43,507 nucleotides of DNA, from NCBI GenBank assembly GCA_944386975.1, contig CALXDC010000021.1, positions 1 through 43,507 of the forward strand, written 5' to 3'. Below, piece after piece: positions 25,245-43,397 of this stretch. The stretch is from an uncultured Oscillospiraceae bacterium. Lineage in GTDB: Bacteria > Bacillota > Clostridia > Oscillospirales > Oscillospiraceae. The notes under the pieces are model-generated. The model did no database searches and was not told the origin of the DNA. It saw nothing but the letters and a program-made list of their open reading frames with translations. How positions within the stretch are numbered: position 1 is the first letter of the stretch; each line of letters starts with the position of its first letter. The translations under genes were made by a program, and so were the position numbers.

Positions 25245-26123
25245 ATGAAAGGAATTGTTTTGGCCGGTGGAAGCGGTACGCGGCTGTATCCCCTTACAAT
25301 GGTGACGTCCAAGCAATTGCTCCCGATTTACGATAAACCCATGGTATATTATCCACTGTCCACTTTGATGCTGGCAGGAATACGAGATATCCTCATTATT
25401 TCCACACCTCAGGATCTGCCCAATTTTGAGCGGCTTCTGGGGGATGGCAGCCAGTTCGGGATTCACCTCTCCTACAAGGTGCAGCCCTCTCCGGATGGGC
25501 TGGCCCAGGCTTTTATTCTGGGGGAGGAATTTGTGGCCGGAGACCGGTGCGCCATGATTTTGGGAGACAATGTCTTTTACGGCGCCGGACTCACTTCTCA
25601 CCTGCGGCGGGCTGCCAGTCAGGAGACGGGAGCTACTGTGTTCGGCTATTATGTGGATGATCCCCAGCGTTTCGGTGTGGTGGAATTTGATGCTTCCGGC
25701 AAGGCTGTGTCTCTGGAGGAAAAACCCCAAAACCCCAAGTCTAATTACGCCGTGACAGGACTTTATTTCTACGACGAGAAGGTCTGCCAGCGGGCCAAAG
25801 AACTGAAGCCCTCTGCGCGGGGAGAACTGGAGATTACGGATCTCAACAGGATCTATCTGGAAGAGGATACCCTGAACGTCATTACCCTGGGCCGGGGCTA
25901 TGCCTGGCTGGACACCGGCACGGTGGACTCATTGGCGGAGGCCACGGAGTTTGTCCGGGTCATTGAAACGCGTACTGACACCAAGATCGCGGCGCTGGAG
26001 GAAATTGCTTACCGCAACGGCTGGATCGACCGGGAGAGGCTGCTGGCCTCTGCAGAAAAGTACGGGAAGTCGCCGTACGGCGCGCACCTGCGGGCTGTGG
26101 CAGACAACAAGATTTTATACTGA
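25245..26123 (+). CDS. rmlA: Glucose-1-phosphate thymidylyltransferase
   Basis: 292 aa, the usual length, with GGAGG before ATG. It converts glucose-1-phosphate and dTTP to dTDP-glucose, the first step to dTDP-L-rhamnose. The nucleotide-binding start [13 protein letters not shown], the [17 protein letters not shown] segment, LGDNVFYG and [20 protein letters not shown] are all intact RmlA signatures. First gene of an 18-kb plus-strand operon; rmlC follows after 16 bases. Confidence 0.95.
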
Positions 26124-26139
26124 GAGGCGGATATCTTCT

Positions 26140-26685
26140 ATGGAATTTATGAAAACAAAGCTGGACGGTGTGATTATTGTGGAGCCGAAGGTGTTCGGCG
26201 ACCACCGGGGCTTCTTCATGGAGAGCTGGTCCAAGCGGGAATTTGAAAAGGCAGGTCTGTTCTACGACTTTGTGCAGGACAACCACTCATCCTCTACGGT
26301 GAAGGGGACCTTGCGCGGCATTCATTTTCAGAAAGGAGACAAAGCGCAGGCCAAGCTGGTGCGCTGTGCCCGGGGCGCTGTGTTGGATGTGGCGGTAGAT
26401 CTGCGCCCGGCCAGTCCCACTTATAAACAGTGGGTGGCGGTAGAACTCTCAGAGGAGAACAAGCGGCAGCTGCTGATCCCCAGGGGGTTCGGCCACGGCT
26501 TTGTGACGCTGACAGACCATGTGGAGTTCCTCTACAAGGCGGACAACTATTACGCGCCGGAGGCGGATGGCGGTATTCGTTGGAACGATCCTGAGCTGGC
26601 GATTGACTGGGGTGTGGAAGAGCCGATTTTGTCGCAGAAGGACCAGACGTCCCCGTGGCTGAAGGACGCCGAAACCGGATTTTAA
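26140..26685 (+). CDS. rmlC: dTDP-4-dehydrorhamnose 3,5-epimerase
   Basis: 181 aa from ATG 26140 (AGAGGCGG upstream); an in-frame ATG nine bases later is an alternative. Cupin-fold enzyme with DHRGFFMESW, the catalytic His in LRGIHFQ, PRGFGHGFVTL and the Tyr region EFLYKADNYYAPEADGGIRWNDP. It epimerises dTDP-4-keto-6-deoxyglucose at C3 and C5. Lies between rmlA and rmlB with 12 bases to the latter. Confidence 0.95.
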   Translation: MEFMKTKLDGVIIVEPKVFGDHRGFFMESWSKREFEKAGLFYDFVQDNHSSSTVKGTLRGIHFQKGDKAQAKLVRCARGAVLDVAVDLRPASPTYKQWVAVELSEENKRQLLIPRGFGHGFVTLTDHVEFLYKADNYYAPEADGGIRWNDPELAIDWGVEEPILSQKDQTSPWLKDAETGF

Positions 26686-26697
26686 GGAGAAAAGATC

Positions 26698-27717
26698 ATG
26701 AAAATGTTGATTACCGGCGGCGCCGGCTTCATTGGCAGCAATTTTATATTTCACATGCGTAAGGCCCATCCTGATTATGAGCTCATTTGTGTAGATAAAC
26801 TGACCTATGCCGGTAACTTGGAGACCTTGGCGCCTGTGATGGACGATCCCAAGTTTACCTTTGTCAAAGCGGATATTGCGGACCGCGCCGCCATGGAGGA
26901 GACCTTTGCCGGTCTGCGTCCGGATGTGGTGGTGAACTTCGCCGCTGAGAGCCATGTAGACCGTTCCATTGAGAACCCGGGAGTGTTTCTGGAGACCAAC
27001 GTGATGGGTACCCAGGTGCTGCTGGATGTCAGCCGGAAGTACAGTGTGCAGCGGTACCATCAGGTATCCACCGATGAGGTGTACGGAGACTTGCCTCTGG
27101 ACCGGCCCGACCTGTTCTTCACGGAGCAGACCCCGCTGCATACCTCCTCGCCCTATTCCGCATCCAAGGCTTCGGCAGATCTCCTGTGCAATGCGTATCA
27201 GCGCACCTACGGCATGCCGATCACGATCTCCCGCTGCTCCAATAACTACGGTCCCTACCAGTTTCCGGAGAAACTGATTCCCCTGATGATTGCCAACGCT
27301 TTGGCGGACAAGCCTCTCCCGGTCTACGGTCAGGGAATCAACGTGCGGGACTGGCTATATGTGGAGGATCACTGCCGGGCCATTGATTTGATCTTGGGAA
27401 ATGGAAAAGTAGGCAATGTCTATAACATCGGCGGGCATAATGAGATGCGCAACATCGACATTGTCAAGAAGATCCTGGCGATCTTGGGCAAGCCTGAGAG
27501 CCTCATTACCTATGTGACGGATCGCAAAGGACATGATATGCGCTACGCCATCGATCCTGCCTTCATCCACCGGGAGCTGGGCTGGCTGCCGGAGACCAAG
27601 TTTGAAGATGGAATTCAAAAAACGGTGCAGTGGTATTTGGAGAATCGCCCTTGGTGGGAGAATATTGTCAATGGAGAGTATCAGACCTATTATGAACGGA
27701 TGTACGGAAACCGGTAA
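26698..27717 (+). CDS. rmlB: dTDP-glucose 4,6-dehydratase
   Basis: 339 aa with AAGGAGA before ATG. NAD-binding GGAGFIGSN is at the N-terminus. The active site is seen as STDEVYG and YSASKASAD (Tyr/Lys pair), with [18 protein letters not shown] and [16 protein letters not shown] further on, all RmlB hallmarks. It makes dTDP-4-keto-6-deoxyglucose. The 3' end overlaps the following glycosyltransferase start region. Confidence 0.95.
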
Positions 27718-28675
27718 GCCTCTGGTCTCCATCCTGATGGCAGTCTATGAGCCGCGGATGGACTGGCTGCGGGAACAGCTGCTGTCCCTGAATGCGCAGA
27801 CGTACCCGAATTTGCGGCTCTATATCCGGGATGATTGTTCTCCTACGGTGCCATATGAAGAAATACAGTCCTGCGTGCAGGACTGTATTTCCGCGTTTCC
27901 GTATACGATCCAGCGAAATGAACAAAATCTGGGATCCAACGGGACCTTTGAGTGGCTGACCAGGGAAGCGGAAGGTGAATATTTTGCCTACTGTGACCAA
28001 GATGACGTATGGTTGCCGGAAAAGATAGAACGATTGAAAGATTCCTTGTTGAAAAAACAAGCTCTCCTAGTGTGCTCTGATATGTATGTAATTGATGAAA
28101 ACGGGATGATTATTGCAGATAGTATTAGAAAAGTGCGACGTCACCACGTATTTTGTTCTGGGGAGCGATTATCTAGAAAGTTGCTATTTAGTAATTTTGT
28201 AACCGGCTGTACGATGATGGTTAATAGCAAAATGGCCAAAGCTGCAGTCCCCTTTTGCCCGTATATGGTACATGATCATTATTTGGCACTATGGAGTGCT
28301 GAACACGGTAAAATTTATAGTGAGAGCAGGCCACTCATACGCTACCGAATACACGGAGCAAATCAGACAAATGTGATGGCTGGTGTAAAGGATAAGCGCA
28401 GTTATGGCGAAATTAGAATACGGCTATCAAAAAATAAATTTGAATGGCTAAAGGAACATTTTCCTTGTGGACAGGAGACAAAGGAGGCTATTAATCAAGG
28501 TTTAATTTGGTCTGATGCGCGCTTGAGAAGCTGGAATCACCGAGGAGGTATGGGCACTCTGTGGAAATATCGGAATCTTAACAGAATTGTGTCTGCAGCG
28601 GAATGTTGTTTAAAATATATGCCAAATAGTGTGTTTATGGCGGCCGTACGTTTGGTAAGAAATAATAAGGTGTAA
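27671..28675 (+). CDS. Glycosyltransferase family 2
   Basis: 334 aa from ATG 27671 (GGGAG ten bases upstream); ATG 27692 is an alternative and both lie inside the end of rmlB. The GT-A start is [41 protein letters not shown], and the DxD-like region is [26 protein letters not shown] and [11 protein letters not shown] follow, typical of rhamnosyltransferase-like GT2 enzymes. It should add one sugar to the glycan in the cytoplasm. Base composition changes inside the gene: the first ~280 bases are as GC-rich as rmlB, the rest is clearly AT-rich. This suggests a recombined 3' portion. Confidence 0.85.
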
Positions 28676-30357
28676 TGATGAAAATATTAGTGACAGGTGC
28701 AACAGGGCAGCTGGGATATGAGGTTTGTAAGGTCTTGCGAGAGAGGGGGGTGGAATATAAGGGCGTGTGCTCGGCAGATTTTAGTATTGTGGATGCTGCT
28801 GCGGTGGACGCCTACGTGAGGGAATACCGGCCGGATGCGGTGATTCATTGCGCAGCCTATACTGCTGTGGATGAGGCGGAGGGCCACCGGGAGCAGTGCT
28901 TTGCGGTGAATGAGATGGGTACTCGAAATATTGCCCGGGCTTGCCGAGCATTAGACGCCAAAATGCTGTATATCTCCACTGATTATGTGTTTTCTGGCAA
29001 GGGAAGCAGGCCTTACGAGGTGGACGACCAGGTTCAGCCTCAGAACGTGTACGGAGCCAGCAAGCTGGCAGGTGAGTTTGCTGTGAAGGAGAACCTGACG
29101 AGGTACTTCATTGTACGCACCTCTTGGCTGTTTGGCCGGGGAAATAACTTCATTGTGAATATCCTGCACAGGGCCCAGGAGAATAAGAGCATCACGGTAG
29201 TGGACGATCAGGTGGGGGCACCTACTTATGCTGCGGATTTGGCAAAATTACTCTGTGATATGGTGGAGAGCGATCGATATGGAATCTATCACGCGGCGAA
29301 TGAGGGGAGCTGCAGCCGATATGAGCTGGCCCGGGAAGTAGTGTGCCAAGCGTGGTTGGATGTACAAGTCCGATCGTGCGCTACAAAGGAGTATAGCCTG
29401 CCTGCTGTCCGTCCTCTCAACTCCCGACTGAGCAAGGAGAGCCTAGATGTGGCTGGGTTTGCCCGACTGCCGAGTTGGCAAGATGCCTTGTGGCGCTTCC
29501 TGCGCCGGGATAACCCTACAAAAAAAATATTGGTGACTGGCGGAAACGGATATCTCGGAAAGCATGTAGTAAAGTTGTTGTTGGATGCTGGATATCCGGT
29601 TATGGTAGCGGCCTCACACCCGGAAGCGACTGATCCCCGGGCACTCATCTGCCCAGAGCCGATTTTTTCTGGAGCAGAAGACATTTACCGCAGAGTGGGC
29701 AGCCCTGACGTGTGCATCCACTTGGCCTGGAAGGACGGCTTTGCCCATAACTCTCCAGCCCACATGCAGAACCTCTCGAATCATATTGAGTTTTGCAGAC
29801 ATATGATGAATGGAGGACTACCCATTCTTTCGTGTATGGGCACTATGCATGAAGTGGGATATTGGGAGGGCCCTATTAATGAGAATACCCCGTGTGCTCC
29901 GCAGACTCAGTATGGAATTGCCAAGAATGCCATGAGACAGAGCCTATTGCTTTTGGCGAGGGAAAACACATGTGTGTTGCACTGGCTAAGGCTCTATTAT
30001 ATCGTTAGTGACGACGTCAACGGGCAAAACATTTTCGCTAAGATTCTAAAGGCTGCTAAACAGGGGAAAACCACTTTCCCCTTCACCAGCGGCAAAAATG
30101 TGTACGATTTTATTGAAATTGATGAGCTCGCTAGACTGATTGTGATGGCCAGCCTCCAAACGGAGGTCTCAGGTGTAACGGATGTGTGTACAGGAAAACC
30201 AGAATCCCTGGCCTCGTGTGTGGAGCGGTTTATACAGTCTCACCATCTTTCTATCAAGCTAGAATATGGGAAGTATCCTGACCGGCCGTATGACAGTCCG
30301 GGGGAGTGGGGAGACAGTACCAAAATCCAAAAGATCCAGGAGAACTATAAAAAATGA
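28675..30357 (+). CDS. rmlD: RmlD (dTDP-4-dehydrorhamnose reductase) fused to a second SDR enzyme
   Basis: 560 aa; the ATG overlaps the previous stop as TAATG. Residues 1-280 are a complete RmlD: ILVTGATGQLGYEV, STDYVFSGKG, the YGASK catalytic pair, VRTSWLFG, VDDQVGAPTYAADLA and the RP.NSRL end. After a short RRDNPTKK linker, residues ~283-560 are a second extended SDR with its own VTGGNGYLGKHV, the YGIAK pair, LRLYYIVSDD and FIEIDELARLI. The first part makes dTDP-L-rhamnose. The second may be another nucleotide-sugar reductase or epimerase (for example toward 6-deoxytalose, or a heptose epimerase), which cannot be decided by eye. RmlD is normally a separate ~285-aa protein. Confidence 0.85.
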   Translation: MMKILVTGATGQLGYEVCKVLRERGVEYKGVCSADFSIVDAAAVDAYVREYRPDAVIHCAAYTAVDEAEGHREQCFAVNEMGTRNIARACRALDAKMLYISTDYVFSGKGSRPYEVDDQVQPQNVYGASKLAGEFAVKENLTRYFIVRTSWLFGRGNNFIVNILHRAQENKSITVVDDQVGAPTYAADLAKLLCDMVESDRYGIYHAANEGSCSRYELAREVVCQAWLDVQVRSCATKEYSLPAVRPLNSRLSKESLDVAGFARLPSWQDALWRFLRRDNPTKKILVTGGNGYLGKHVVKLLLDAGYPVMVAASHPEATDPRALICPEPIFSGAEDIYRRVGSPDVCIHLAWKDGFAHNSPAHMQNLSNHIEFCRHMMNGGLPILSCMGTMHEVGYWEGPINENTPCAPQTQYGIAKNAMRQSLLLLARENTCVLHWLRLYYIVSDDVNGQNIFAKILKAAKQGKTTFPFTSGKNVYDFIEIDELARLIVMASLQTEVSGVTDVCTGKPESLASCVERFIQSHHLSIKLEYGKYPDRPYDSPGEWGDSTKIQKIQENYKK

Positions 30358-30404
30358 CGGAACAGGGAAGATCATAGGGCAGAGTATATAAGAGGAGAGA
30401 AGTT

Positions 30405-31844
30405 GTGGTGCAGGATTTAGAACAGATTAAGAATCAGACAGTGCTGGTGGTCGGCGATATGATGGTGGATAAATATATCTTGGGAACAGTGAACCGCATA
30501 TCACCGGAGGCACCGGTTCCTGTGTTGCATCAACGGGAGGTCCAGAGAAAACTGGGAGGTGCCGGCAATGTCATTGTGAATGTAGTGAGCCTGGGAGCTA
30601 GAGTCAGGGCTGTGGGGCGTGTGGGAAATGATGAGGAAGGTGCATTTTTTTCCCGGAATCTCAGCGATCTGCATGTGGACACACGGTATATTTTTATAGA
30701 GGGCAGCACCATCACAAAAACAAGGGTATCCGCCAGCAATCAGCAGTTCATCCGAATTGACGAAGAGACTGTGACGGCGCCTTCGAAAAGCGTGACAGAA
30801 CGGATCTCAGCGGAGCTGGACGCTATTTTAGGTGGCGTCACCGTAGTGGTGCTTTCCGATTATGCAAAGGGATTTTTGACTGAAGAATTGACGCAGAGGA
30901 TTATCGTTGCGGCAAAGGAACGGGGGATCATCGTATTGGTGGACCCCAAGGGAAAGCACGTGGGCAAGTACAGAGGGGCAACAGCTATTACCCCTAACGG
31001 CAAGGAATTCATGGATATGACCGGCCTGGCCGAACTCCCTGGAGAGGCGAAGATCGAGGAAGTGGGTCTGCGATTGTGCACGCAGGCAGATCTGGATTAT
31101 GTCATTTTTACCCGCTCGGAGAAGGGTATCTCCGTGATTGACAGAGCAGATGCAAAAAAAACCGACTACCCCGCACTGAAAAAAGAGGTCGTGGATGTGA
31201 CCGGTGCAGGAGATACGGTTGTGGCTACTATTGCCCTCATGCTGGGGGCGGGCTTTCCCATGAGCGAATGTATCACCATGGCCAATCAAGCCGCCTCTAT
31301 TGTAATCTCTCGGTTCGGGGCGTCCCAGACTACGGTGGAGGAGATAAAAGAGGCCTTAGGCATGCAAGTGCAGACGGGACATGATCAGCAGGAGATCTTA
31401 GCGCGGATTGCACAACAGAAACGCCGGGGCAAGAAGGTCGTGTTTACCAATGGTTGTTTTGACTTGGTACATGCTGGGCATATCAGCAGCTTCCGTCAGG
31501 CGCGGTCATTTGGGGATATTCTGGTAGTGGGGGTTAATTCGGATGAGTCTGTTCGCAGACTGAAGGGGGAAACCCGGCCTATCGTGTCATTGCCCCATCG
31601 GATTGCCTTGCTGACAGCGCTGAAATGCGTGGATTATGTTATTCCCTTTGAGGAGGACACGCCTCAGGACCTGATCGAACAGGTCAGACCTGATGTGTTG
31701 GTGAAGGGGAAGGACTGGGAAGGAAAGAGAATTGCGGGTGATGAGTTTGTGCAGGCCTATGGCGGAAGTGTGCGCTTTGTGGAATTGGAGCAGGGGTTGT
31801 CTACGACGGAGCTCATTGAACGCATTAAGAAGACGATAAAATGA
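30405..31844 (+). CDS. hldE: Bifunctional heptose-7-phosphate kinase/heptose-1-phosphate adenylyltransferase
   Basis: 479 aa from GTG 30405 with AGGAGA upstream; full HldE length. The ribokinase-like domain (1-325) has KLGGAGNVIVNVVSLGA, NGKEF and the catalytic DVTGAGDT (~264-271). The adenylyltransferase domain (~345-479) has VVFTNGCFDLVHAGH with the nucleotide-binding HAGH (~356-359), GVNSDESVRRLKG and a STTELIERI end. It makes ADP-D-glycero-beta-D-manno-heptose together with GmhA and GmhB, both encoded in this operon. No separate HldD epimerase gene is seen. ADP-heptose genes are standard in Gram-negatives and less expected in this background. Confidence 0.9.
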   Translation: MVQDLEQIKNQTVLVVGDMMVDKYILGTVNRISPEAPVPVLHQREVQRKLGGAGNVIVNVVSLGARVRAVGRVGNDEEGAFFSRNLSDLHVDTRYIFIEGSTITKTRVSASNQQFIRIDEETVTAPSKSVTERISAELDAILGGVTVVVLSDYAKGFLTEELTQRIIVAAKERGIIVLVDPKGKHVGKYRGATAITPNGKEFMDMTGLAELPGEAKIEEVGLRLCTQADLDYVIFTRSEKGISVIDRADAKKTDYPALKKEVVDVTGAGDTVVATIALMLGAGFPMSECITMANQAASIVISRFGASQTTVEEIKEALGMQVQTGHDQQEILARIAQQKRRGKKVVFTNGCFDLVHAGHISSFRQARSFGDILVVGVNSDESVRRLKGETRPIVSLPHRIALLTALKCVDYVIPFEEDTPQDLIEQVRPDVLVKGKDWEGKRIAGDEFVQAYGGSVRFVELEQGLSTTELIERIKKTIK

Positions 31845-31860
31845 AGGCGGGTACATTAAG

Positions 31861-33060
31861 GTGATTGAAAAAATAAAAAAGGTGCTACGGCATAAAGAGC
31901 TGAGGTGGTTTTGGCGGTATGCCTCCATGGCAAAGCTGCATATCGGGCGCTACGCCAGCAAAAAAATCATATTGGTCCGGCTGGACATGATTGGCGATTG
32001 CACCATGTTCAGCAGTGCGGCCAAAGCAATTTGCGACCATTATAAAGATCGGGAAGTAACAGTGGTGTGTCTGTCTACTACAAAGCCCATCTTTGAGCGG
32101 ATAGGGTGTTTTCATGAGGTTATCCCAGTGGATTTTAAACCTACTGCCATTGATTACCCCAAGCTCAAGACTCTGATTCGTCGGTTGCGCTCCACCGAGT
32201 ATGACCTGCTACTTCAGCCCCAGGCCTCGAAGTTACCCATTGCGGATATCATTGACGCGGCTATCAAATGCAACCGTCGGATTGCGCTGGAGACCAAAGT
32301 AGGAAACAGCAGCGCTAGATGGGTGGACATGGTCAATTTCCTGTATGATGAATTTATCCCCTCACCCAAGGGAATCGTAAGTGAGTTTGATTACTACGGG
32401 GCATTTGTGAGGGGGCTGGGATGTCCGGACTATAAGACCACTTGTCCCAGCTTGCCCTATCACGAGCAGAATTTTATCGAGGGCAACTACTATGTCCTCT
32501 ATCCTGCTGGGTCGTTCAAACAGAAGTTCTGGCCGCTGGACCGGGTGGCCTGGCTGGCGGACCATATTTATCAGAAGACGGGCTTTATCGCAGTAATTCT
32601 GGGGGCTCCTCACGAGAAGTGGGTGGCCGATGAGATTAAGGACAAGCTCCATCCCCTGACGGCAATGTCTACCATTGACCTGATGGGGAGGACTACTATC
32701 GGGGAAGTAGTTGATATCATTGGAAATGCCCAGTTTGTCATCTCCAACGACACGAGCGGGGTTCATATTGCCTGCGCTACCAAGACGCCGTCTGTGGTAG
32801 TGGTGGGTGGTTGGCACTTCAAGCGCTTTCTGCCATACCACATTGAGAACCCTGCCCCCGACGATTGCTTGCCTGTTTCAGCCTATACCAAGATGCCTTG
32901 CTATTACTGTGACTGGGATTGGAATACGATCGGAGAGAGAAACCAGGAGTGCCTGCACCGCATGCAGAGGGAGGAACCCTGTACGTGTATCGATGCGGTG
33001 TGCTACGAGCAGGTATGTGAATTAGTAGATGAAGTAATTGAAAGAGTACAGCTATGTTAA
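31861..33060 (+). CDS. Glycosyltransferase family 9 (heptosyltransferase-like)
   Basis: 399 aa from GTG 31861. GT-B fold: the N-terminal half has KKIILVRLDMIGDCTMFSSAAKAI; the C-terminal half has YYVLYPAGSFKQKFWPLDRVAWLADHI and the nucleotide-sugar site ISNDTSGVHIACATKTPSVVV, the GT9 signature. GT9 enzymes use ADP-heptose in known cases, and the gene directly follows hldE, so transfer of heptose to the glycan is likely. The last ~80 residues are Cys-rich (CYYCDWDWNTIG), which is unusual. It overlaps the next gene by seven bases. Confidence 0.85.
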   Translation: MIEKIKKVLRHKELRWFWRYASMAKLHIGRYASKKIILVRLDMIGDCTMFSSAAKAICDHYKDREVTVVCLSTTKPIFERIGCFHEVIPVDFKPTAIDYPKLKTLIRRLRSTEYDLLLQPQASKLPIADIIDAAIKCNRRIALETKVGNSSARWVDMVNFLYDEFIPSPKGIVSEFDYYGAFVRGLGCPDYKTTCPSLPYHEQNFIEGNYYVLYPAGSFKQKFWPLDRVAWLADHIYQKTGFIAVILGAPHEKWVADEIKDKLHPLTAMSTIDLMGRTTIGEVVDIIGNAQFVISNDTSGVHIACATKTPSVVVVGGWHFKRFLPYHIENPAPDDCLPVSAYTKMPCYYCDWDWNTIGERNQECLHRMQREEPCTCIDAVCYEQVCELVDEVIERVQLC

Positions 33061-34877
33061 AGAGAGGAAATACACTCCATTTCATTAATCGTGTGGACGG
33101 AAATAACTGCGGGGACATGATGGCCTGCCCACTGCTGTACTACTATGATTACTTTAAACAGTATTGTATTAAGCGTCATGATATACGCTTTATCGACTAT
33201 GAGAGCATTTCAAGTTCAGATGTGGTGATCTTGGGGGGAGGAGGACTGCTCGACTACGCTGAGTCTATGAATCGAGCTATCAACAGGGTGCTGGATATCG
33301 GTGCGGCAGTGATCGCTTGGGCTCCGGGATTCAACACCCATAGTCAGTACTGCGACAGAGTAAAGACGCCGATCCATTTTGAACGATTTGCCCTCCTTGG
33401 GGTGCGCGATGATCAGAATTCACTCCAGTTGCCTTATTTGCCGGATGTTAGCTGTAAGCTGGAGGGGTTGCGGAGATCCTACACAGTATGCAGAGAGGTT
33501 GGGATTGCGGCACATAAGGATTATCCTATTGTGGGTCTCGACCTGGATGTTATCACCAATGAGCGCAGTATGGATGAGATTCTCCGGTTTATCGGTGAGT
33601 CGAGGACCATTATTTCCAACAGCTTTCATATGATCTATTGGGCCATCTTGATGGGGAAGAAGACGGTGTGCGTGGCACCATTCAGCTCAAGATTTTTTTC
33701 ATACCGATATAAACCGGAATATTGCTCTGGCACCCTGCAGGATGCAGTGGAATGCCTTGGAAAGGCGCAGCGCTACCATGTGCTAGAGGAATGCGTCCAG
33801 ATGAACGATTCCTTTTTTCAGCGGGTAAGGGAGATTATTGAGAGCAGGCTTACACCCGAACATAACCTATTTGCACTCTATGAAGGGACCACCCAGGAGG
33901 CCATTTTAAGGGAGTCGTACAGAGAGCGACAGCTGCAAGAGGGGGATATGCTCATTGCGCAGCTGTTTGTGGATGAAGGCTCGGGTTTTTGCGAGGAAAA
34001 CAAACTTATCTCCATTAACAATGTGTACGGAGATGACGTACACACCATTCGCTTTGACCTTGCTGGTTTTTCTAACCCCAGGAGGCTGCGCTTTGATCCC
34101 ATAGAGGCATATTTTTGTAAAGTCAAAATGCTCAGCGTAGAGTCAGACAGAGGTCCTCTGTCCTATTGGGCAAAAGCAGCCGTCAACACAGATGGTTGGA
34201 ATTATTTCTTGACTACCGACCCCCAATACTATATTGGGGTGACTCCGCAGGAGAAATCTGTTACGGTGAACTTCAGACTCAGACTTTTGAGTCACAGCGA
34301 GGCCGAGGCTAACCTGTATGGTTTTTTAGATTATCAAGATCAGAGAATAGAAGCATTTGTAGGACAGCTCCGAGAAAAAGAAGCGGATTTGCAGCGTCAA
34401 ATACAGATTGTCCAGGAACAAAAGGGGCAAATAGAGCAGGAGACTGCTCGGCTTCAGGAGCAGAATGAGATGCTTAGTCAATATGTTGAGCATATTCAGG
34501 AACAGAGAAAAGAAATAGAGTGGCAGTCCCTTAGGCTACGGCATCAGGATGAGGAATTGGCGCAAAAAGAGCAAAGCATTTCGCGCCAAGATCAGGAATT
34601 GGTGGTGCGCGCAGAAAAAATACATGCCCAGGATGTGCAGATTAAGCGGCTCCTTGAATGTATAGAACAGCAGAGCCAGAAGCTCACACAACAGAGTCAG
34701 CGCATTGAAAAGATGGAGGGGTGTATTACTAGACAGACTTTTGAGGTGGAACAAATGTCCCTGCAACTAAAGAACCTCTACAACTCTACCTGCTGGAGAA
34801 TTACAGCGCCCATTCGGAAAATTGGCGATTTTATTAAGCTTTTATTGAAAGGAATCAATAAAAATGCGACTAAGTGA
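33054..34877 (+). CDS. Polysaccharide pyruvyltransferase-family protein with coiled-coil extension
   Basis: 607 aa. Residues 1-265 match the PS_pyruv_trans family: GNNCGDMMACPLLYYY, VVILGGGGLLDY, GLDLDVITNERSMDEIL and the conserved His segment ISNSFHMIYWAILMGKKTV. The family adds ketal-linked pyruvate to wall or exopolysaccharides. Residues ~290-430 form a beta-rich domain (AQLFVDEGSGFCEENKL...) also seen in other polysaccharide enzymes. Residues ~435-575 are a long Gln/Glu-rich coiled coil. The end NLYNSTCWRITAPIRKIGDF is a common tail of cell-surface glycosyltransferases. The coiled coil may hold an assembly complex together. It overlaps both neighbours (7 and 14 bases). Confidence 0.8.
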   Translation: MLKRGNTLHFINRVDGNNCGDMMACPLLYYYDYFKQYCIKRHDIRFIDYESISSSDVVILGGGGLLDYAESMNRAINRVLDIGAAVIAWAPGFNTHSQYCDRVKTPIHFERFALLGVRDDQNSLQLPYLPDVSCKLEGLRRSYTVCREVGIAAHKDYPIVGLDLDVITNERSMDEILRFIGESRTIISNSFHMIYWAILMGKKTVCVAPFSSRFFSYRYKPEYCSGTLQDAVECLGKAQRYHVLEECVQMNDSFFQRVREIIESRLTPEHNLFALYEGTTQEAILRESYRERQLQEGDMLIAQLFVDEGSGFCEENKLISINNVYGDDVHTIRFDLAGFSNPRRLRFDPIEAYFCKVKMLSVESDRGPLSYWAKAAVNTDGWNYFLTTDPQYYIGVTPQEKSVTVNFRLRLLSHSEAEANLYGFLDYQDQRIEAFVGQLREKEADLQRQIQIVQEQKGQIEQETARLQEQNEMLSQYVEHIQEQRKEIEWQSLRLRHQDEELAQKEQSISRQDQELVVRAEKIHAQDVQIKRLLECIEQQSQKLTQQSQRIEKMEGCITRQTFEVEQMSLQLKNLYNSTCWRITAPIRKIGDFIKLLLKGINKNATK

Positions 34878-36819
34878 CCAGCCTAAACGCGCGTGTATCT
34901 ATTTTATCTATGACCGGGACGGGATCGTGGACCGCTATGTAATCCATCAGTTGGAAGATATGCGGAAAAACGTTGCCTTTCTTCATTGTGTGATCAACGG
35001 GAAACTGACTCACAAGGGAAAATATGCTTTGGAGCATGTGGCCGACGAAGTATATGTACGTGAGAATAAGGGAAACGATATCGGGGCGTACAAAGCTGCC
35101 ATTCAACATATCGGGTGGGAAAAGCTTTCGTCCTTTGATGAACTTGTTATCATGAACAACACATGCTTTGGGCCGGTCTATCCGTTTAAAGAGTGTTTTG
35201 ATTGGGCCCAAAATCAGGATGTTGATTTTTGGGGGCTGACTGGAGATACCAAGACGGACTGGCTGGGAACAAAGAATTATCTGCACTACAATGAATCTCG
35301 GATGCATATGCAGTCCTACTTTCTTGTTTTGCGCAAGCCCCTGTTGGGCAGCAACCTGCTGAAAGAGTTCTTCGACGAGATCCCCGAGGATACCAGCTAC
35401 GTGTTCTCCGGCTGCTACTATGAGTACGCCTTTCCTGGATATTTTGAGGAGCGGGGGCACCGGGGAGCGCTTTACTGCGGCGATGAGGATGATATGGATT
35501 ATCCACTGCTCCACAATCCGGCCTCTCTGCTGCGCAAATACAGGATGCCCCTTTTTAAAAAGCGCAGCTTTTTCCACCACTATACCGACGTCCTCAATCA
35601 CTCCGCGGGGGAGGCCACGGCCAGGCTGATCCGTTTCCTCCAGGAGGAGACCGATTATGATATGGATCTGGTGTGGGAGTCCATCCTCCGGACCTGCAGC
35701 CTTTCCGATGTGGTGCGCTGCGCCCAGCTGAACCGTGTGCTCCCCAGCCGCCAGTTGACGGACGGGAAGCCGGCCGGGGGCAGCAGGGTGGGCCTGGTGT
35801 ACCACGCCTATTATGAGGACCTGTTTGACGAGAGCATCTCCTATATCATGAATTTCCCCGCCTGGGCCGGCGTGCTGATCACCACAGACACCCAGGAGAA
35901 AAAAGCGGCGCTGGAGGCCAAGCTTCAGGCCGCCGGGGGCAAAGGAGAGGTCATCGTCATTGAGAACCGGGGGCGCGACGTGTCCAGCCTTCTGGTGGGA
36001 GCGGCGGAGTTTGTGAAGCGGTACGACCTGATCTGCTTTGCCCATGAGAAGAAGACCCCGCAGATCAAGCCCTATACCGTGGGCCGTTCCTGGGCGTATA
36101 AGCTGCATGAAAATATGTTTGGAACCGGGGAATTTGTCCAAAATGTGATTGCCATGTTTGAGCGTGAGAAGCGGCTGGGCATCGCGTTCCCCTCGGCGCC
36201 CAACCACAGCCACTACGCGTACAGCATCGGAAACGGCTGGAGCGGAAACTTTGAAAATACCCGCAAGCTCCTGACGGATTTTCATGTCCGGGCGGCCATC
36301 AACGAGCACACCCTCTGTGTCGCCCCTCTGGGCACCTGCTTTTGGTTCCGGACCAAGGCGCTGGAGAAGCTGTTCGCGGGATACGACGGGGACGGCTGGA
36401 AGTACTCGGATTTTCCCCGGGAGCCCAATCGCTACGATCAGACCATCCTCCATGCCATTGAGCGCTCCTACGCCTACTTTGCACAGGACGCGGGGTATTA
36501 TCCGGTGTACCTCTACAGCGACCGGTTCGCCCAAGTGGAATTGACCACCCTGGAATTCAATCAGTCGGGCGCCACCGAGATGCGGGCATGGGTGAATGCC
36601 TTGGCCATGAATTCCCTTGTTACTGATTCCCAGAAGCGTGATGAAGAGATGACCTCCGAGGAGATCGTACAGCGTTATGACCAAAGTATCAACTATGGAG
36701 TGAAGCAAAGTATGATACATCTGGCATTTGCACTGCGCTGCAAGTACCCTACTATGTGGAAAATTATGCTGCCTGTCAGACGGGTGGTTCAGATGGTGCT
36801 GGGAATTAAGACCAAGTAA
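34864..36819 (+). CDS. Rhamnan synthesis F (RgpF-like) protein
   Basis: 651 aa. Two RgpF-type segments are visible. The N-terminal half has CIYFIYDRDGIVDRYVIHQLEDMR, ENKGNDIGAYKAAIQHIGW, DELVIMNNTCFGPVYPF and MQSYFLVLRKPLL. The second half has VGLVYHAYYEDLFDESISYI, IENRGRDVSSLLVGAAEFV, YDLICFAHEKKTPQIKPY and APLGTCFWFRTKALEKLFAGY. RgpF proteins act in assembly of rhamnose-rich wall polysaccharides, fitting the rml genes upstream. GC content rises sharply from about 35340 and falls again near 36600, giving a mosaic gene. The start overlaps the previous gene by 14 bases. Confidence 0.85.
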   Translation: MRLSDQPKRACIYFIYDRDGIVDRYVIHQLEDMRKNVAFLHCVINGKLTHKGKYALEHVADEVYVRENKGNDIGAYKAAIQHIGWEKLSSFDELVIMNNTCFGPVYPFKECFDWAQNQDVDFWGLTGDTKTDWLGTKNYLHYNESRMHMQSYFLVLRKPLLGSNLLKEFFDEIPEDTSYVFSGCYYEYAFPGYFEERGHRGALYCGDEDDMDYPLLHNPASLLRKYRMPLFKKRSFFHHYTDVLNHSAGEATARLIRFLQEETDYDMDLVWESILRTCSLSDVVRCAQLNRVLPSRQLTDGKPAGGSRVGLVYHAYYEDLFDESISYIMNFPAWAGVLITTDTQEKKAALEAKLQAAGGKGEVIVIENRGRDVSSLLVGAAEFVKRYDLICFAHEKKTPQIKPYTVGRSWAYKLHENMFGTGEFVQNVIAMFEREKRLGIAFPSAPNHSHYAYSIGNGWSGNFENTRKLLTDFHVRAAINEHTLCVAPLGTCFWFRTKALEKLFAGYDGDGWKYSDFPREPNRYDQTILHAIERSYAYFAQDAGYYPVYLYSDRFAQVELTTLEFNQSGATEMRAWVNALAMNSLVTDSQKRDEEMTSEEIVQRYDQSINYGVKQSMIHLAFALRCKYPTMWKIMLPVRRVVQMVLGIKTK

Positions 36820-36871
36820 ACTGATGGATAGCAGAAAATAAATCTGATAGAGAACAAAAAGTGTGGGTAAT

Positions 36872-37531
36872 ATGAAGAAAAGAGAAAAAACGTTAGAGCA
36901 ATTGCGGAAGGAATTATTTGATCGGTTTCCCCAACTTGTAAGTTGCCGCACATCATTTGATGAAGCATTCAGTACTCTGCTCAACTGCTACCGCGAGGGC
37001 GGAAAGCTGTTGGTTGCAGGAAATGGAGGCAGTGCGGCGGACTCGGAGCACATAGTAGGTGAGTTGATGAAGTCGTTCTTGTTCAACCGGAAGATTACAG
37101 ATGACGTGGAGCGGAATTTGGTGGAGTGTTTTGGCGAGGACGGTTTGCATTTAGCGGAAAAACTGGAAGGAGCACTGCCCGCCATTCCATTGACATCCAT
37201 GCCAGCATTAACCAGTGCGTTTGCCAATGATGTGGATGTCGCAGTTTCTTTTGCACAAATGCTGTATGGATACGGTTGCGCGGGAGATGTTTTGCTGGGA
37301 ATTTCCACATCGGGAAACTCAAAGAATGTCTTGTATGCATTGATGGTAGCAAAGGCAAAGGGTATCCGAACCATTTTGCTCACTGGTGGGACCGGTGGAC
37401 GGGGAAGAGCCTTGGCGGATCATATCATCTGCGTGCCAGAGACGGAGACATTCAAGATTCAGGAACTGCATCTACCTATTTACCACGCACTTTGTGCCAT
37501 GCTCGAGGCGGAACTGTTTCAAGAGAAATGA
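36872..37531 (+). CDS. gmhA: Sedoheptulose-7-phosphate isomerase
   Basis: 219 aa from ATG 36872; an in-frame GTG at 36863 is possible and neither has a strong ribosome-binding site. SIS-domain protein: LLVAGNGGSAADSEHIVGELMKSF, the GISTSGNSKNVLYAL phosphate loop, ILLTGGTGG and the catalytic region QELHLPIYHALCAMLE are GmhA features. It turns sedoheptulose-7-phosphate into D-glycero-D-manno-heptose-7-phosphate, the substrate of HldE. A helical N-terminal extension of ~30 residues makes it a little longer than typical GmhA (~190 aa). Confidence 0.85.
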   Translation: MKKREKTLEQLRKELFDRFPQLVSCRTSFDEAFSTLLNCYREGGKLLVAGNGGSAADSEHIVGELMKSFLFNRKITDDVERNLVECFGEDGLHLAEKLEGALPAIPLTSMPALTSAFANDVDVAVSFAQMLYGYGCAGDVLLGISTSGNSKNVLYALMVAKAKGIRTILLTGGTGGRGRALADHIICVPETETFKIQELHLPIYHALCAMLEAELFQEK

Positions 37532-37580
37532 ACTCACAATCAGAAACATTTAGTTAAAATCGAGTGTGATGCTTATTATA

Positions 37581-37602
37581 CTTGTTCTTAATAGATAACA
37601 AG
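37581..37602. promoter_or_regulatory. Short inverted repeat between gmhA and gmhB
   Basis: CTTGTT (37581-37586) and AACAAG (37597-37602) around a 10-base AT-rich centre in the 112-base gap. It might mark an internal promoter or a processing point; evidence is thin. Confidence 0.2.
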
Positions 37603-37643
37603 AAATCCAATGTGAACCTGAAGAACGATGAGGGGGTAGGCAT

Positions 37644-38150
37644 TTGAACAAAGCATTTTTATTGGATCGAGATGGCACAATTAATGTGGATACCGGATAT
37701 GTGGGGGATCCAGACAAGGTAGAGCTTTTATTGGGAGTTGCGGAGGCCATCCGGAACATGAACCGAACTGGGTACCTTGTGATCGTTGTGTCTAATCAGA
37801 GCGGAGTGGCCAGAGGGTATTTCGGACTGGATGCGGTGAAACGGGTAAACGACAGAATTAATGAGCTGTTGGCCCAGCAAGGCGCCCACATAGATGCGTT
37901 CTATGTCTGTCCGCATTTGAAGGGCGGGGCAGTCAAAGAATTTGATGTTGAGTGTGAATGCCGTAAGCCCAAATTGGGTCTATTTCAAAAGGCCATCACC
38001 GATTTCTCACTTGATCCTGCTCAGTGCTTTGCTTGCGGGGATAAGCCCCGAGATATAGAGCGGCTGACGGAGCTGGGAATACCCCCGGAGCATCTGGCGA
38101 TTGTCGACGGTGTGACCATAACTGAGTGCTTTCCATTCCTGTCGGAGTGA
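37644..38150 (+). CDS. gmhB: D-glycero-beta-D-manno-heptose 1,7-bisphosphate 7-phosphatase
   Basis: 168 aa from TTG 37644, chosen because GAGGGGGT lies just upstream and the frame begins NKAFLLDRDGTINVD. HAD-family phosphatase: DRDGT motif at the N-terminus, VVSNQSGVARG, the zinc site CPHLKGG...CECRKPKLG and CFACGDKPRDIE. It removes the 7-phosphate from heptose-1,7-bisphosphate so that HldE can attach AMP. With hldE and gmhA this completes the route to ADP-D-glycero-beta-D-manno-heptose within the operon. Confidence 0.9.
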   Translation: MNKAFLLDRDGTINVDTGYVGDPDKVELLLGVAEAIRNMNRTGYLVIVVSNQSGVARGYFGLDAVKRVNDRINELLAQQGAHIDAFYVCPHLKGGAVKEFDVECECRKPKLGLFQKAITDFSLDPAQCFACGDKPRDIERLTELGIPPEHLAIVDGVTITECFPFLSE

Positions 38151-39670: not shown

Positions 39671-42616
39671 ATGAAACGTAAAATTGAGATTGTTTTCTGC
39701 ATACTATTTCTCTTAATGGTTGCGGTTCCGCTGGCATTGTCAGACTTCAGGGGCGGCGGAGTATCCCAGTATGAAAGACGGCAGCTGAAAGAATTCCCCA
39801 CTCTGGTTACAGATACCGGCTTAGATCTGCGGAAACTGGGGGAAATAGATGATTGGGTCGACGATAATATCGGTCTGAGAGATGTTTGCGTGAATCTCTA
39901 CACGCAGCTTATGGTTAAAGGGTTGCATGTATCTTCCAACGATAAGGTTATGTTTGGAACAGATGGCTGGTATTTTTATACTCCGGACCACAATATAGAA
40001 ATCGGCCTGGGAAATTATTTCCTGACTGACGAGCAGCTGGATAAAATCGCCCAGAACCAGCAGCGTATTTCTGATTTTTATCAGGAAATGGGGATTGAGT
40101 ACACTTTGGTGCTTACCCCCAGCAAAGCCAGCGTCTACACCGAATATGTAACTGGCGGAGAGACCACAGGAAGAACCATGATCGATCAGGTATCGGATTA
40201 TTTGACTGAGCATACCGATGTTCATGTGGTCAATACCAAGACGGATCTGGTGGATGCCAAGGATCAGGGAAAACTGTTCTGGAAGACAGATACCCATTGG
40301 ACGGAGCTTGGATCTTATGTGGCCTACGGGAGTATTCTGGATCGGCTCACGGCGTGGGATATTGTTTCCACCCCTAAAATGTATGTGGATTTTACCAAGG
40401 AAACGGCGCATGGATTTGGAGAATTCAATACCATGCTGGGCAATTATAAGATCCTGGGTGAAGAAGAAATCCCCAAGGGCGTGTTGCAGGGAAGCGGTGA
40501 GCAGATCACCAGCGGCGCACAATACGAAAAATTAGCTGCGATTCAGAAGGTGGTTGAGCCCAATTACCCGGCCATCATCATCCACAATGACCAAAGCACG
40601 GATCAAAACTTGCTTATTTATGGCGATTCCCAGTGGGAACTGATTAGAAATATGCCGTGGTATTTTTCCGCCAATTTTTCCGATGTAGTGTCGATGCGTT
40701 CCGATAAACTGAACATGGATATTGATTACTGTGCGCAGCCGGATGTGATTATTTTTGGCTGTTCCGAGCGATATATCGATACCAAGCTTTTGGCGGACAA
40801 CCCCTCCTTTATTCCCTTCATGGATCAGCCGGACCAGGCGCTCAGTGATAGGAGCGGAGTAAACGACGCGGAGTGGCGTCTGTTTGTGGATAGCTTTGAC
40901 GGGGCTGTCTCCACACAGGAAGATACGCTGAATCGTATGAGCAGCAACACGAGTAGCTCGGTAAATATTCAGGGCTGGTGTGCGGATCTGCGGAATCACT
41001 CCAGTATGAGCAGCTTGTATGTCCAGATCGGTACCATGTTGTTCCCGTGTGAGTATGGGCTTAACAGTGAAAGTGTGGCGGACTATTATCAGGACGAGGC
41101 GTATGGTCAGTGCGGATTTTCCGTGCAAATTCCTCGGATCTGTTTTGAGCGAACCAATCCCGACCAAATAAAGTTTGTGGCTATCTCCCAGGATGGGCAA
41201 AAAGAGTTTGAAAAAACATACGCCCTCCGTCAGACAAATCCCAGCACCATGTATGAGGGCCTTGCCGATCTGCCGGTGCAGTCCCTAGACAATTCTGCCA
41301 ATAATCTCTGGATCGATTACTGCAACGATGTGGCACAGCCGGATGCACAGCTGGTGCACCTTGATTTGAGCCAAAGCGATGAGCTCAGCTTCAGCGGATG
41401 GGCAGCGGATCTGACCGGCGGCACGCCGCTGGGGGCGCTGTATGTCCAGATCGGGGACCAGATATTCCAGTGTCATTACGGAGAGGAACGGGGCGCCGTC
41501 GCGGATTATTTCCAGAATGAGAATCTGAAATATACGGGCTTCAGCTTCTCCGTCCCCGCGGACGTATTTCAGGGCGGCGCAGTTGACACCATGATCTTTA
41601 TCGAAGTGTCCCAGGACGGCGCCTATCGTTATGAGGACGTGCCCTACCGGATCGATTACGCACAGACCTCCGGCGCGGAGGGAACCGGAGAGCCCCAGAC
41701 GGCTCCCCAGCAGCCGGAAGACTCCGCCCAGAGCGAAGACGGCGAAAATCTGTTTGCCTCCAGGTATGTCACGGTTCTGCTGTTTGCCGTGGTCATTCTC
41801 ACGTTCTGCCTGCTACTGTTCTTCCTAGTCCACAACGATCAGGGGGAGATGTTACGTAAGTTCAATCAAAAGAAATTCTTGTTCTCTGAGCTGATCAAAC
41901 GGGATTTCACGCTGAAATACAAGAGGACTATTTTGGGCATGTTCTGGAGCATCCTCTTTCCCTTGGTAAATTTGCTGATCATGTGGCTGGTGTTCAACAA
42001 GCTGTTGGGCAGCAATATCGACCATTTTGTGGTCTACCTGTTTGCCGGACAGCTGATCTTCAACTATTTCAGCGACGCCACCAATATGGGCATGACCTCC
42101 CTAGTGGACAATGCCAGCATTTTTACCAAGGTAAACGTCCCGAAGTATTTATTCCTGTTCTCGCGGAATGTCTCCACGCTGATCAACTTCGGCCTGACCC
42201 TGATCATATTCTTTTTGTTCGTCGGGCTGGATGGCCTTCCGTTTTCCATCAAGTTCCTCTCGCTGCTGTATCCCATCATCTGCCTGATCATTTTAAATCT
42301 GGGGACAGGCATGATTTTGTCAGCCCTGTATATGTTCTTCCGGGACATGCGGTACCTGTGGAGCGTAGCGACACAACTTCTGATGTGGATGTCTGCCATC
42401 TTTTATAGTATTGACGGCTTCTCAGAGGAAGTGCAGAGATTGTTTTTGCTCAATCCTGTGTATTTGTGTATCCGGTACTTTAGAAAAGTAGTCATTGAGG
42501 ACACCATTCCGACAGCCCAGTTCCATCTCCTCTTGGCGGCAATATCTCTTGGCGTTTTTGGTATCGGGTGTATTGTTTACAAGAGAAAGAATCATGAGTT
42601 TTTGTACTATGTATAA
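39671..42616 (+). CDS. AlgJ/AlgX-like O-acetylation domain fused to ABC-2 glycan-export permease
   Basis: 981 aa in one uninterrupted frame. A membrane anchor (residues 5-25) is followed by an SGNH/AlgJ-like domain (~30-420) with KTDTHWTELGSYVAYGSIL (D207, H209) and LLIYGDSQWEL (G318-D319-S320), the expected catalytic pieces. Two related beta-type repeats follow (~427-515 and ~570-665: INIQGWCADL-like and FSGWAADLTGG, each with LYVQIG). A Gln/Glu/Pro-rich linker leads to a membrane span (~700-722), then a Wzm/TagG-type ABC-2 permease (~728-981): FSELIKRDFTLKYKRTILGMFWSILFPL, LFAGQLIFNYFSD and LLWMSAIFYS-like segments. Topology would put the acetylation domain outside and the permease start inside. 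I know these parts only as separate proteins. Confidence 0.85.
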   Translation: MKRKIEIVFCILFLLMVAVPLALSDFRGGGVSQYERRQLKEFPTLVTDTGLDLRKLGEIDDWVDDNIGLRDVCVNLYTQLMVKGLHVSSNDKVMFGTDGWYFYTPDHNIEIGLGNYFLTDEQLDKIAQNQQRISDFYQEMGIEYTLVLTPSKASVYTEYVTGGETTGRTMIDQVSDYLTEHTDVHVVNTKTDLVDAKDQGKLFWKTDTHWTELGSYVAYGSILDRLTAWDIVSTPKMYVDFTKETAHGFGEFNTMLGNYKILGEEEIPKGVLQGSGEQITSGAQYEKLAAIQKVVEPNYPAIIIHNDQSTDQNLLIYGDSQWELIRNMPWYFSANFSDVVSMRSDKLNMDIDYCAQPDVIIFGCSERYIDTKLLADNPSFIPFMDQPDQALSDRSGVNDAEWRLFVDSFDGAVSTQEDTLNRMSSNTSSSVNIQGWCADLRNHSSMSSLYVQIGTMLFPCEYGLNSESVADYYQDEAYGQCGFSVQIPRICFERTNPDQIKFVAISQDGQKEFEKTYALRQTNPSTMYEGLADLPVQSLDNSANNLWIDYCNDVAQPDAQLVHLDLSQSDELSFSGWAADLTGGTPLGALYVQIGDQIFQCHYGEERGAVADYFQNENLKYTGFSFSVPADVFQGGAVDTMIFIEVSQDGAYRYEDVPYRIDYAQTSGAEGTGEPQTAPQQPEDSAQSEDGENLFASRYVTVLLFAVVILTFCLLLFFLVHNDQGEMLRKFNQKKFLFSELIKRDFTLKYKRTILGMFWSILFPLVNLLIMWLVFNKLLGSNIDHFVVYLFAGQLIFNYFSDATNMGMTSLVDNASIFTKVNVPKYLFLFSRNVSTLINFGLTLIIFFLFVGLDGLPFSIKFLSLLYPIICLIILNLGTGMILSALYMFFRDMRYLWSVATQLLMWMSAIFYSIDGFSEEVQRLFLLNPVYLCIRYFRKVVIEDTIPTAQFHLLLAAISLGVFGIGCIVYKRKNHEFLYYV

Positions 42617-42626
42617 GGAGGGCAAC

Positions 42627-43397
42627 ATGGAAAAGGCAAAAGAAGATGTTGTTATTTCCGCTCAAAATGTGCGAATACAGTATAAGCTCGGCGATTTCAA
42701 AGATATCGGCTTGAAGGAATGGACAGTCCGGCATTTGAAGAAAAACTACCATGTGGAGTACTTTATGGCCGTAGACAACGTCACATTTGAATTATGCAAA
42801 GGGGAGATGCTTGGTATTATTGGAACCAACGGTGCGGGAAAATCAACCTTGCTCAAGGCAATATCCGGGATCATGGAGCCTACCAGCGGAAGTATTGAGC
42901 GAAGAGGTAATATTGCTGCTCTTTTGGAACTGGGTAGTGGATTTGATGGAGATTTGACAGTTCGGGAAAACACATACCTTCGTGGAGCAATGTTGGGATA
43001 TACCCGAAAATATATGGATGAGGTTTATAAGCAGATCTTGGATTATGCGGAGCTAAGAGAATTTGAAAACCGTCCATTTAAACAACTTTCTTCTGGTATG
43101 AAATCAAGACTTGCGTTTTCTATTGCTAGTCTAGTGAATCCAGAGATCCTAATTTTGGACGAGGTTCTATCTGTGGGGGATGGGGCCTTCCGAAAAAAGA
43201 GTGAAGCAAAGATGAAAGAAATTATCAGAGGGGATGCTACTACCATCTTGGTTTCACACTCCTTAGAGCAGATTCGAGAGCTGTGCACCAAGATTCTTTG
43301 GCTACACAGGGGAAAACAAATTGCGTTCGGGGAAAATGTTCAGGATATATGTAATAAATATCAAAGTTTTTTAAATAACAAATTTACAATTGTTTAA
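42627..43397 (+). CDS. ABC transporter ATP-binding protein for polysaccharide export
   Basis: 256 aa from ATG 42627 with AAGGAGG upstream; an in-frame ATG further upstream overlaps the permease gene and lacks a site. Wzt/TagH type: an N-terminal YKLGDF...VEYFMAVDNVTFEL lead, Walker A GTNGAGKS (66-73), Q-loop region GLLELGSGF-like ALLELGSGFDGDL, signature LSSGMKSRLAFS and Walker B ILILDEVLSVGD. It powers export of the finished glycan through the permease domain encoded just upstream. It lacks the C-terminal carbohydrate-binding domain seen in some Wzt proteins, so chain recognition may be done by the permease's extra domains. Confidence 0.9.
   Translation: MEKAKEDVVISAQNVRIQYKLGDFKDIGLKEWTVRHLKKNYHVEYFMAVDNVTFELCKGEMLGIIGTNGAGKSTLLKAISGIMEPTSGSIERRGNIAALLELGSGFDGDLTVRENTYLRGAMLGYTRKYMDEVYKQILDYAELREFENRPFKQLSSGMKSRLAFSIASLVNPEILILDEVLSVGDGAFRKKSEAKMKEIIRGDATTILVSHSLEQIRELCTKILWLHRGKQIAFGENVQDICNKYQSFLNNKFTIV

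Follow-up and report, generated by a model that had tools for sequence, protein, structure and literature searches.

In PatA/PatB, AlgI/AlgJ/AlgX and PatA1/PatB1, an MBOAT protein with a WHG motif and an FXYXXF hexapeptide is paired with a separate SGNH protein that carries an Asp-x-His motif and a serine. In OatA, OafA and OafB, the SGNH domain shares one polypeptide with an acyltransferase-3 (AT3) membrane domain, and an extra helix puts it outside, as described in the available sections of PMC9558356. Transporters of the Wzm/Wzt type, such as TarG/TagH, have an ABC-2 permease and an adjacent ATPase inside a glycan cluster. Here we describe an open reading frame (ORF) at positions 39671-42616 of a 43,507-nucleotide stretch of DNA (the window; contig CALXDC010000021.1) from an uncultured Oscillospiraceae bacterium. 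This gut-type bacterium appears to join an acylating enzyme domain and the export channel for a surface sugar polymer in one protein. As in OatA, OafA and OafB, an extra helix lies within one polypeptide that has its SGNH domain outside, but there the SGNH domain is fused to the acyl-transferring membrane protein, whereas here it is fused to the exporter and the MBOAT protein is separate. Unlike PatB or AlgJ, the SGNH domain is covalently linked to an exporter permease and to two immunoglobulin-like (Ig-like) repeats; unlike Wzm or TarG, the permease is preceded by an enzyme that lies outside the cytoplasm, by two beta repeats and by an extra helix. Both the MBOAT-SGNH chemistry and Wzm/Wzt export are already known, and the new part is their covalent union, for which no paper appeared among the entries listed by a literature search (preprints and most subscription papers lay outside its coverage).

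The ORF runs from ATG to TAA as a single frame of 981 amino acids (aa) with no internal stop in the assembly, as had been proposed from the letters of the DNA alone (the sequence-only reading). The domains listed in that reading, namely a signal anchor, an SGNH domain with DTHW and GDS motifs, two beta repeats, a linker and a complete permease, are supported by Pfam, the motifs and AlphaFold2 (Table 1), and one feature absent from its list, an extra membrane helix, was found between the second beta repeat and the permease. Two Pfam families matched above their curated cut-offs: ALGX (PF16822) at aa 93-256 with an E-value of 6.5e-14, and ABC2_membrane (PF01061) at aa 738-940 with 2.5e-9. Ahead of Met727, where the permease begins, lie 726 aa, unlike the ~260-aa permease without an extra domain that is typical of Wzm/Wzt. 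A search of the 981-aa protein for PF01757 gave no match with an E-value of 0.1 or lower, so the protein is not an AT3-SGNH fusion, and a defence-system scan gave no match for it.

Among solved structures the SGNH half is closest to AlgJ (4o8v, 4.3e-11). An AlphaFold2 model of aa 1-730, built from 17 sequences (mean predicted local distance difference test score, pLDDT, 73.5; predicted template modelling score 0.53), shows the SGNH domain with confidence, followed by a pair of beta domains, a linker modelled as disordered and a helix at 694-721. We modelled this part and beta repeat 2, and not the full length, because mixed MAFFT alignments placed SGNH-only or beta-only rows partly on the permease. 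The top Foldseek ranks for the model were AlgJ (3.5e-14), PatB1 (9.3e-12) and a DHHW protein (2.1e-11). The catalytic residues expected of an MBOAT partner, an Asp-x-His pair and a serine, are present: D207, H209 and S320 are conserved in all 25 aligned sequences (22 other listed SGNH proteins, two divergent ones and the window's own), and G250 in 24 of them. A narrower alignment of 17 chosen rows (14 of those 22, the same two divergent proteins and the window's own) left R70, D207, H209, G214, G250 and S320 invariant. The two beta repeats are 35% identical over 102 aa and both fold in the model; repeat 2 modelled alone gave an Ig-like sandwich at pLDDT 85.8. A single repeat had no match in the Protein Data Bank at E <0.001 (best E 0.029), and neither had a Pfam match above its cut-off. 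That the repeats serve as a spacer or a glycan guide is a guess.

The sequence-only reading had named the genes on either side as acyl-transfer partner and export motor, and profile evidence agrees, with motif evidence as well for the MBOAT protein directly upstream. This protein keeps the histidine motif WHG (in GIWHGANW) and ends in FIYFNF, which fits FXYXXF, the acyl-shuttle hexapeptide of PatA and other MBOAT proteins with SGNH partners in the available sections of PMC12148441. The MBOAT proteins of genomes G691, G704 and G088 share this ending, and the one of loci L107 and L108 has FLYIRY, which leaves the last F of FXYXXF unmatched. Four MBOAT matches were found in the host genome; that on contig 24 is adjoined by a separate 401-aa frame that matches SGNH, and the other two by separate frames of 390 and 302 aa. 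The permease half has 6oih and 6m96, which we take to be Wzm, as its best solved relatives (about 6e-18), with TarG weaker (6jbh, 1.7e-5), and a stand-alone permease aligns with it over its whole length at 69%. The host genome has no other PF01061 match at E 0.001 or better, in a search that covered this ABC-2 family. Directly downstream is a glycan-type ATPase whose coding start is best placed at 42627, behind AAGGAGGG, so that the permease and adjacent ATPase of a Wzm/Wzt transporter are both present. Its best models are TagH and Wzt, all below equivalog cut-offs; Pfam reported no Wzt C-terminal carbohydrate-binding domain, a further difference from Wzm/Wzt.

Table 1. Features of the window, with positions on the forward strand counted from its first letter.
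Feature	Position	Strand	Evidence or content
MBOAT (AlgI/PatA type), 473 aa	38227..39648	+	PF03062 1.8e-21; DltB structures 1.2e-22; motifs
Fused ORF	39671..42616	+	981 aa: anchor, SGNH, beta, beta, linker, transmembrane helix, ABC-2 permease
Signal anchor, N-terminal (aa 1-29)	39671..39757	+	Hydropathy; helix 2-22 in AlphaFold2 model
AlgJ/AlgX-like SGNH domain (aa 26-395)	39746..40855	+	PF16822; AlgJ 4o8v; Foldseek
DTHW motif (starts aa 207; D207 and H209 of triad)	40289..40300	+	
GDS motif (starts aa 318; nucleophile S320)	40622..40630	+	
Beta repeat 1 (aa about 428-520)	40952..41230	+	
Beta repeat 2 (aa about 556-664), Ig-like sandwich	41336..41662	+	AlphaFold2 pLDDT 85.8
Flexible linker (aa 665-693)	41663..41749	+	pLDDT 32-33 in blocks 671-690
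Extra membrane helix (aa about 694-721)	41750..41833	+	AlphaFold2 model, hydropathy, positive-inside count
Complete ABC-2 (Wzm-type) permease from Met727	41849..42613	+	PF01061; solved structures; stand-alone relatives
ABC ATPase (Wzt/TagH type), 256 aa	42627..43397	+	Pfam, NCBIfam; directly downstream
Upstream glycan genes	25245..38150	+	RmlA, C, B, GT2, RmlD-epimerase fusion, HldE-like, GT9, pyruvyltransferase-like, RgpF, GmhA-like, GmhB-like

Our next question was whether the same union exists elsewhere. Among the matches listed, the SGNH-permease fusion was found in the host genome only, in samples of its genus (11 genomes), family (300 and 400), order (394 searched with the permease and 394 with the SGNH half) and class (391), and in the genera of G691, G704 and G087 (7, 7 and 6 genomes). 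The samples share genomes with one another, those of family, order and class were drawn from larger sets, and in the two family scans and the order scan with the SGNH half the two best candidates per genome were scored, so that a second case could be missed. A scan of genome contigs with an SGNH-beta alignment gave three loci, one of them the G060 contig, and none was fused; viral contigs gave no match, and no plasmid record covered 80% of the fused protein. Two long SGNH ORFs of 869 and 776 aa had no permease match. A permease piece on contig 17 of G182, reported as a 756-aa frame, has a frame of 303 aa in the fetched stretch. The same contig shows two partial permease matches on opposite strands (L042, 2948-3856 and 3203-3853), as if from a broken or rearranged permease copy.

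The unfused relatives preserve the gene order. In G691, a member of the same family (L149), an MBOAT gene (56%) is followed by an SGNH-beta-beta gene (a 706-aa frame, 35-39%), a permease (59%) and an ATPase (74%), with RmlB, GT2 and RmlD genes upstream of the MBOAT gene; a single base separates the SGNH stop from the permease ATG. The order in G704 (L150) is RmlD, epimerase, RgpF (37%), MBOAT (51%), SGNH, permease (62%) and ATPase (69%). The sequence-only reading had proposed a search for the same domain order in other Oscillospiraceae, and had named parts found only as separate genes in all close relatives as a result that would speak against it. In the relatives seen the parts are indeed separate, which makes the fusion a singleton without contradicting its frame. 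In a third genome, G060, two SGNH-beta genes lie on a different contig from the exporter, and the front of its permease is a transmembrane (TM) helix, a beta stretch and a second TM helix (TM-beta-TM).

A tree was built of 48 of the 50 listed permeases, namely all but L033 and L035, with identities of about 44% or more. The window permease groups with those of G281, G087, G215, G262 and G165 (100/100), and the three permeases of the window, G691 and G704 occupy separate places in the tree, with at least two changes forced by the starred branches. The acylation and exporter genes were thus joined on at least two permease lineages. Unlike the permease half, the SGNH half is closest to G060 and G691; the two halves therefore have different nearest relatives. 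The architectures in the tree include one SGNH fusion, two AT3-like fusions, one TM-beta-TM front and six proline-rich or basic N-terminal extensions (that of L076 is cut at the edge of its piece).

Other exporters related to this one carry fusions of their own. The ATPase adjoining the G493 permease is an 808-aa protein with an ATPase, a TM helix, a beta part and an AT3 domain (PF01757, 6.6e-35, 121.2 bits), and G1127 encodes an 809-aa frame of the same build (7.8e-38, 130.8 bits) that is 90% identical over the first 535 aa and 83% in the AT3 part. Like the window protein, these two unite an exporter subunit with a membrane acyltransferase module, but on the ATPase side and with the AT3 family. 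Among the seven genomes of the G493 genus, G1127 alone shares the ATPase-AT3 form; a plain ATPase of 245-266 aa matched in 3/7, and 2 gave no match at threshold. The 18 kb of sequence retrieved around the G493 copy contained no MBOAT or SGNH match. A 965-aa ATPase-TM-beta protein of G593 (L101, 5027-7921) has a polytopic C-terminal end that by eye looks like a GT-C glycosyltransferase; a weak LapA_dom is the only Pfam match of this end at E 0.1 or below. The TM-beta parts of G493 and G593 are related (27% over 164 aa, 1.8e-19) and weakly resemble the front of the G060 permease (8.6e-6); they have no recognisable kinship with the window's beta repeats (E above 5). In G012 and G073, which belong to two genera, an AT3-like domain lies ahead of the permease and is 70% identical between the genera.

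We consider an exporter with a built-in acyltransferase, a Wzm/Wzt-type permease that bears its own extracytoplasmic acyltransferase, to be the best reading of the fused protein, with a probability of roughly 0.6. The locus would build a rhamnose-containing and probably heptose-containing surface glycan, and cluster content points to this glycan as the substrate of the Wzm/Wzt-type transporter. By analogy with PatAB, the MBOAT protein would accept an acyl group, of which acetyl is the likeliest, from acyl-CoA in the cytoplasm, load it on the tyrosine of its C-terminal FIYFNF peptide and present it outside to Ser320. The SGNH domain, tethered to the permease through the beta repeats, flexible linker and extra helix, would then pass the group to the glycan emerging from that same permease, so that the route would run from acyl-CoA through the MBOAT tyrosine and the SGNH serine to sugar. 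ABC-2 permeases act as dimers, so each exporter would carry two acyltransferase domains. Two findings strengthen the link between acylation and export: the two unfused relatives have their genes in this order, and a related exporter has an AT3 domain fused to its ATPase in two genomes from a single genus. The sequence-only reading had gone further and proposed a single export-and-decorate machine that acetylates the chain as it leaves the pore; its domain identities and partners are supported, its functional linkage is made more likely, and acylation at the pore exit and acetyl as the group are not directly supported.

Several observations weigh against this reading. The fusion is present in one assembly only, and the searches offer no direct support for its being a fixed trait of the lineage. 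The five nearest permeases (G281, G087, G215, G262 and G165) all stand alone, with no MBOAT or SGNH match in their retrieved surroundings (8.5 to 19 kb each), and 38 of the 48 permeases in the tree lack an extension the size of a domain, their frames being no longer than 330 aa. The SGNH protein of G704 is divergent: it has 561 aa, one beta repeat and no Pfam match, and weakly matches another SGNH protein (22.7%, 3e-5), though D, H and S are kept. AT3 domains are expected to have an N-terminal histidine motif; the AT3-like domain of G012 and G073 seems to be without this catalytic histidine, and its scores (31.0 and 24.5 bits) lie at or below the Pfam cut-off of 31. It may be inactive or act otherwise than as an enzyme, and the claim that AT3-permease fusions prove the point was toned down, as the histidine is seemingly missing. 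Total guanine-plus-cytosine (GC) content also drops from 0.59 to 0.44 across the junction, all of it in codon positions 1 and 2.

A different account takes the fusion as real but as a mere tether that sets stoichiometry and location; the chain would be acylated once clear of the exporter, as happens where AlgJ or PatB is a protein by itself. G691 and G704 encode these parts as separate genes, so the pathway needs no covalent link, and a disordered linker of about 28 aa permits loose placement. Acyltransferase fusions recur on a different exporter subunit, however, which suggests that closeness to the pore is useful, and we think it rather unlikely that the join is a tether and nothing else.

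It is improbable that the SGNH domain transfers another acyl group or hydrolyses chain esters as a corrector. SGNH folds do include esterases, the acyl donor is a presumed one, and the best NCBIfam model for the MBOAT protein is DltB (TIGR04091), at 148.7 bits against a cut-off of 375; on the other side, an MBOAT protein with an FXYXXF shuttle typifies acyl-CoA-using transferases in the available sections of PMC12148441. The same sections describe DltB as dependent on a separate microprotein, DltX. In the DltB/DltD D-alanylation system the MBOAT protein lacks a C-terminal shuttle of its own and works with DltX and the carrier DltC. We rejected membership in this system on the protein's own FXYXXF end and the score below cut-off; DltA, DltC and DltX were not sought.

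The draft genome, 90.48% complete, comprises 2,658,788 bases over 96 contigs, and the joined frame could also be an artefact, from a chimera made in assembly or a stop lost from the sequence. The singleton status of the fusion, the separate genes of the relatives and the GC shift all fit an artefact, which we nevertheless judge to have little chance of being correct. By alignment, stand-alone permeases start near the equivalent of Met727, and those inspected among the stand-alone SGNH-beta proteins, a pair in L040 and single ones in L149 and L150, stop directly behind their final beta repeat. The window protein has, from beta repeat 2 to Met727, about 63 residues, a proline- and glutamate-rich linker and the helix, that are absent from the unfused proteins inspected. 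The helix reaches a peak hydropathy of 3.3, with 1 lysine or arginine in the 15 residues before it and 4 in the 15 after. By this positive-inside count it runs from outside to inside and would return the permease N-terminus to the cytoplasm, as the topology needs. The join is not a lost stop codon, which could not supply the linker and a correctly oriented helix. GC at third codon positions, in 60-codon windows from aa 661 to 800, shows no break (0.73, 0.70, 0.72, 0.75, 0.77), and the gene order is that of the unfused relatives. The drop in total GC would be expected of a membrane protein, yet is no proof against a break; openness of the linker frame is weak evidence, because one other of the five remaining frames is also open. 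An assembly error is thus unlikely, and confirmation of the frame extends to the assembly and not to the DNA sample itself. Internal initiation at Met727 or proteolysis of the linker, by which a fused transcript would also or mainly yield a separate permease, is very improbable: stand-alone relatives do start near this residue and a purine-rich stretch, CAGGGGGAG, precedes it, but the G-rich stretch runs right up to the ATG, which leaves less than the normal spacing of a ribosome site, and the extra helix would be purposeless if the permease were always separate.

The surrounding genes and the distant permeases show further departures from simple architectures. In the glycan cluster we presume the labels HldE, GmhA and GmhB from domain content (PfkB with CTP_transf_like, SIS and a PNK3P-type phosphatase, respectively). 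A second in-frame fusion at 28675-30357 joins RmlD (aa 1-278) to an SDR epimerase (from about aa 282), unlike L150, where the two are separate neighbouring ORFs. The pyruvyltransferase-like protein (PF04230) at 33054-34877 has a coiled-coil-like C-terminal part with weak SMC model matches; that it is a length ruler like WbdD is possible, as an idea only. Long arginine- and proline-rich repeats such as GERPRRPRPEGA lie ahead of the permease in L072 and L077 (G500 and G617). The permeases of L036, L039, L051, L054 and L058, 33-39% identical to the window's, have stop-to-stop frames of 486-579 aa with a TM, beta-rich, TM front; similar frame lengths occur in other genera, and the added front of L036, L051, L054 and L058 had no Pfam match above cut-off. 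A more distant permease (33%) in L086 (2063-4495, G428) has about 500 aa in front without a family assignment. In L097 (6524-8443, G299), an ATPase is fused to UDP-galactopyranose mutase (PF03275, 5e-74) in a 640-aa protein.

The time and place of glycan O-acylation relative to ABC transport are hard to test, as the acyltransferase is normally a protein apart from the transporter. A fusion that occurs in nature links both activities, sets a defined stoichiometry and offers one construct for testing co-translocational modification. In this organism, we infer that the polymer may be decorated while leaving the cell. It is a tentative and somewhat doubtful extension that glycan ABC exporters of this order are export-and-decorate machines that modify the chain co-translocationally at the pore exit, a group to which the SGNH-permease described here and the AT3-ATPases of G493 and G1127 would belong, and possibly the AT3-like permeases of G012 and G073 and the GT-C-like ATPase of G593. 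Recurrent fusions on different exporter subunits would argue for selected coupling.

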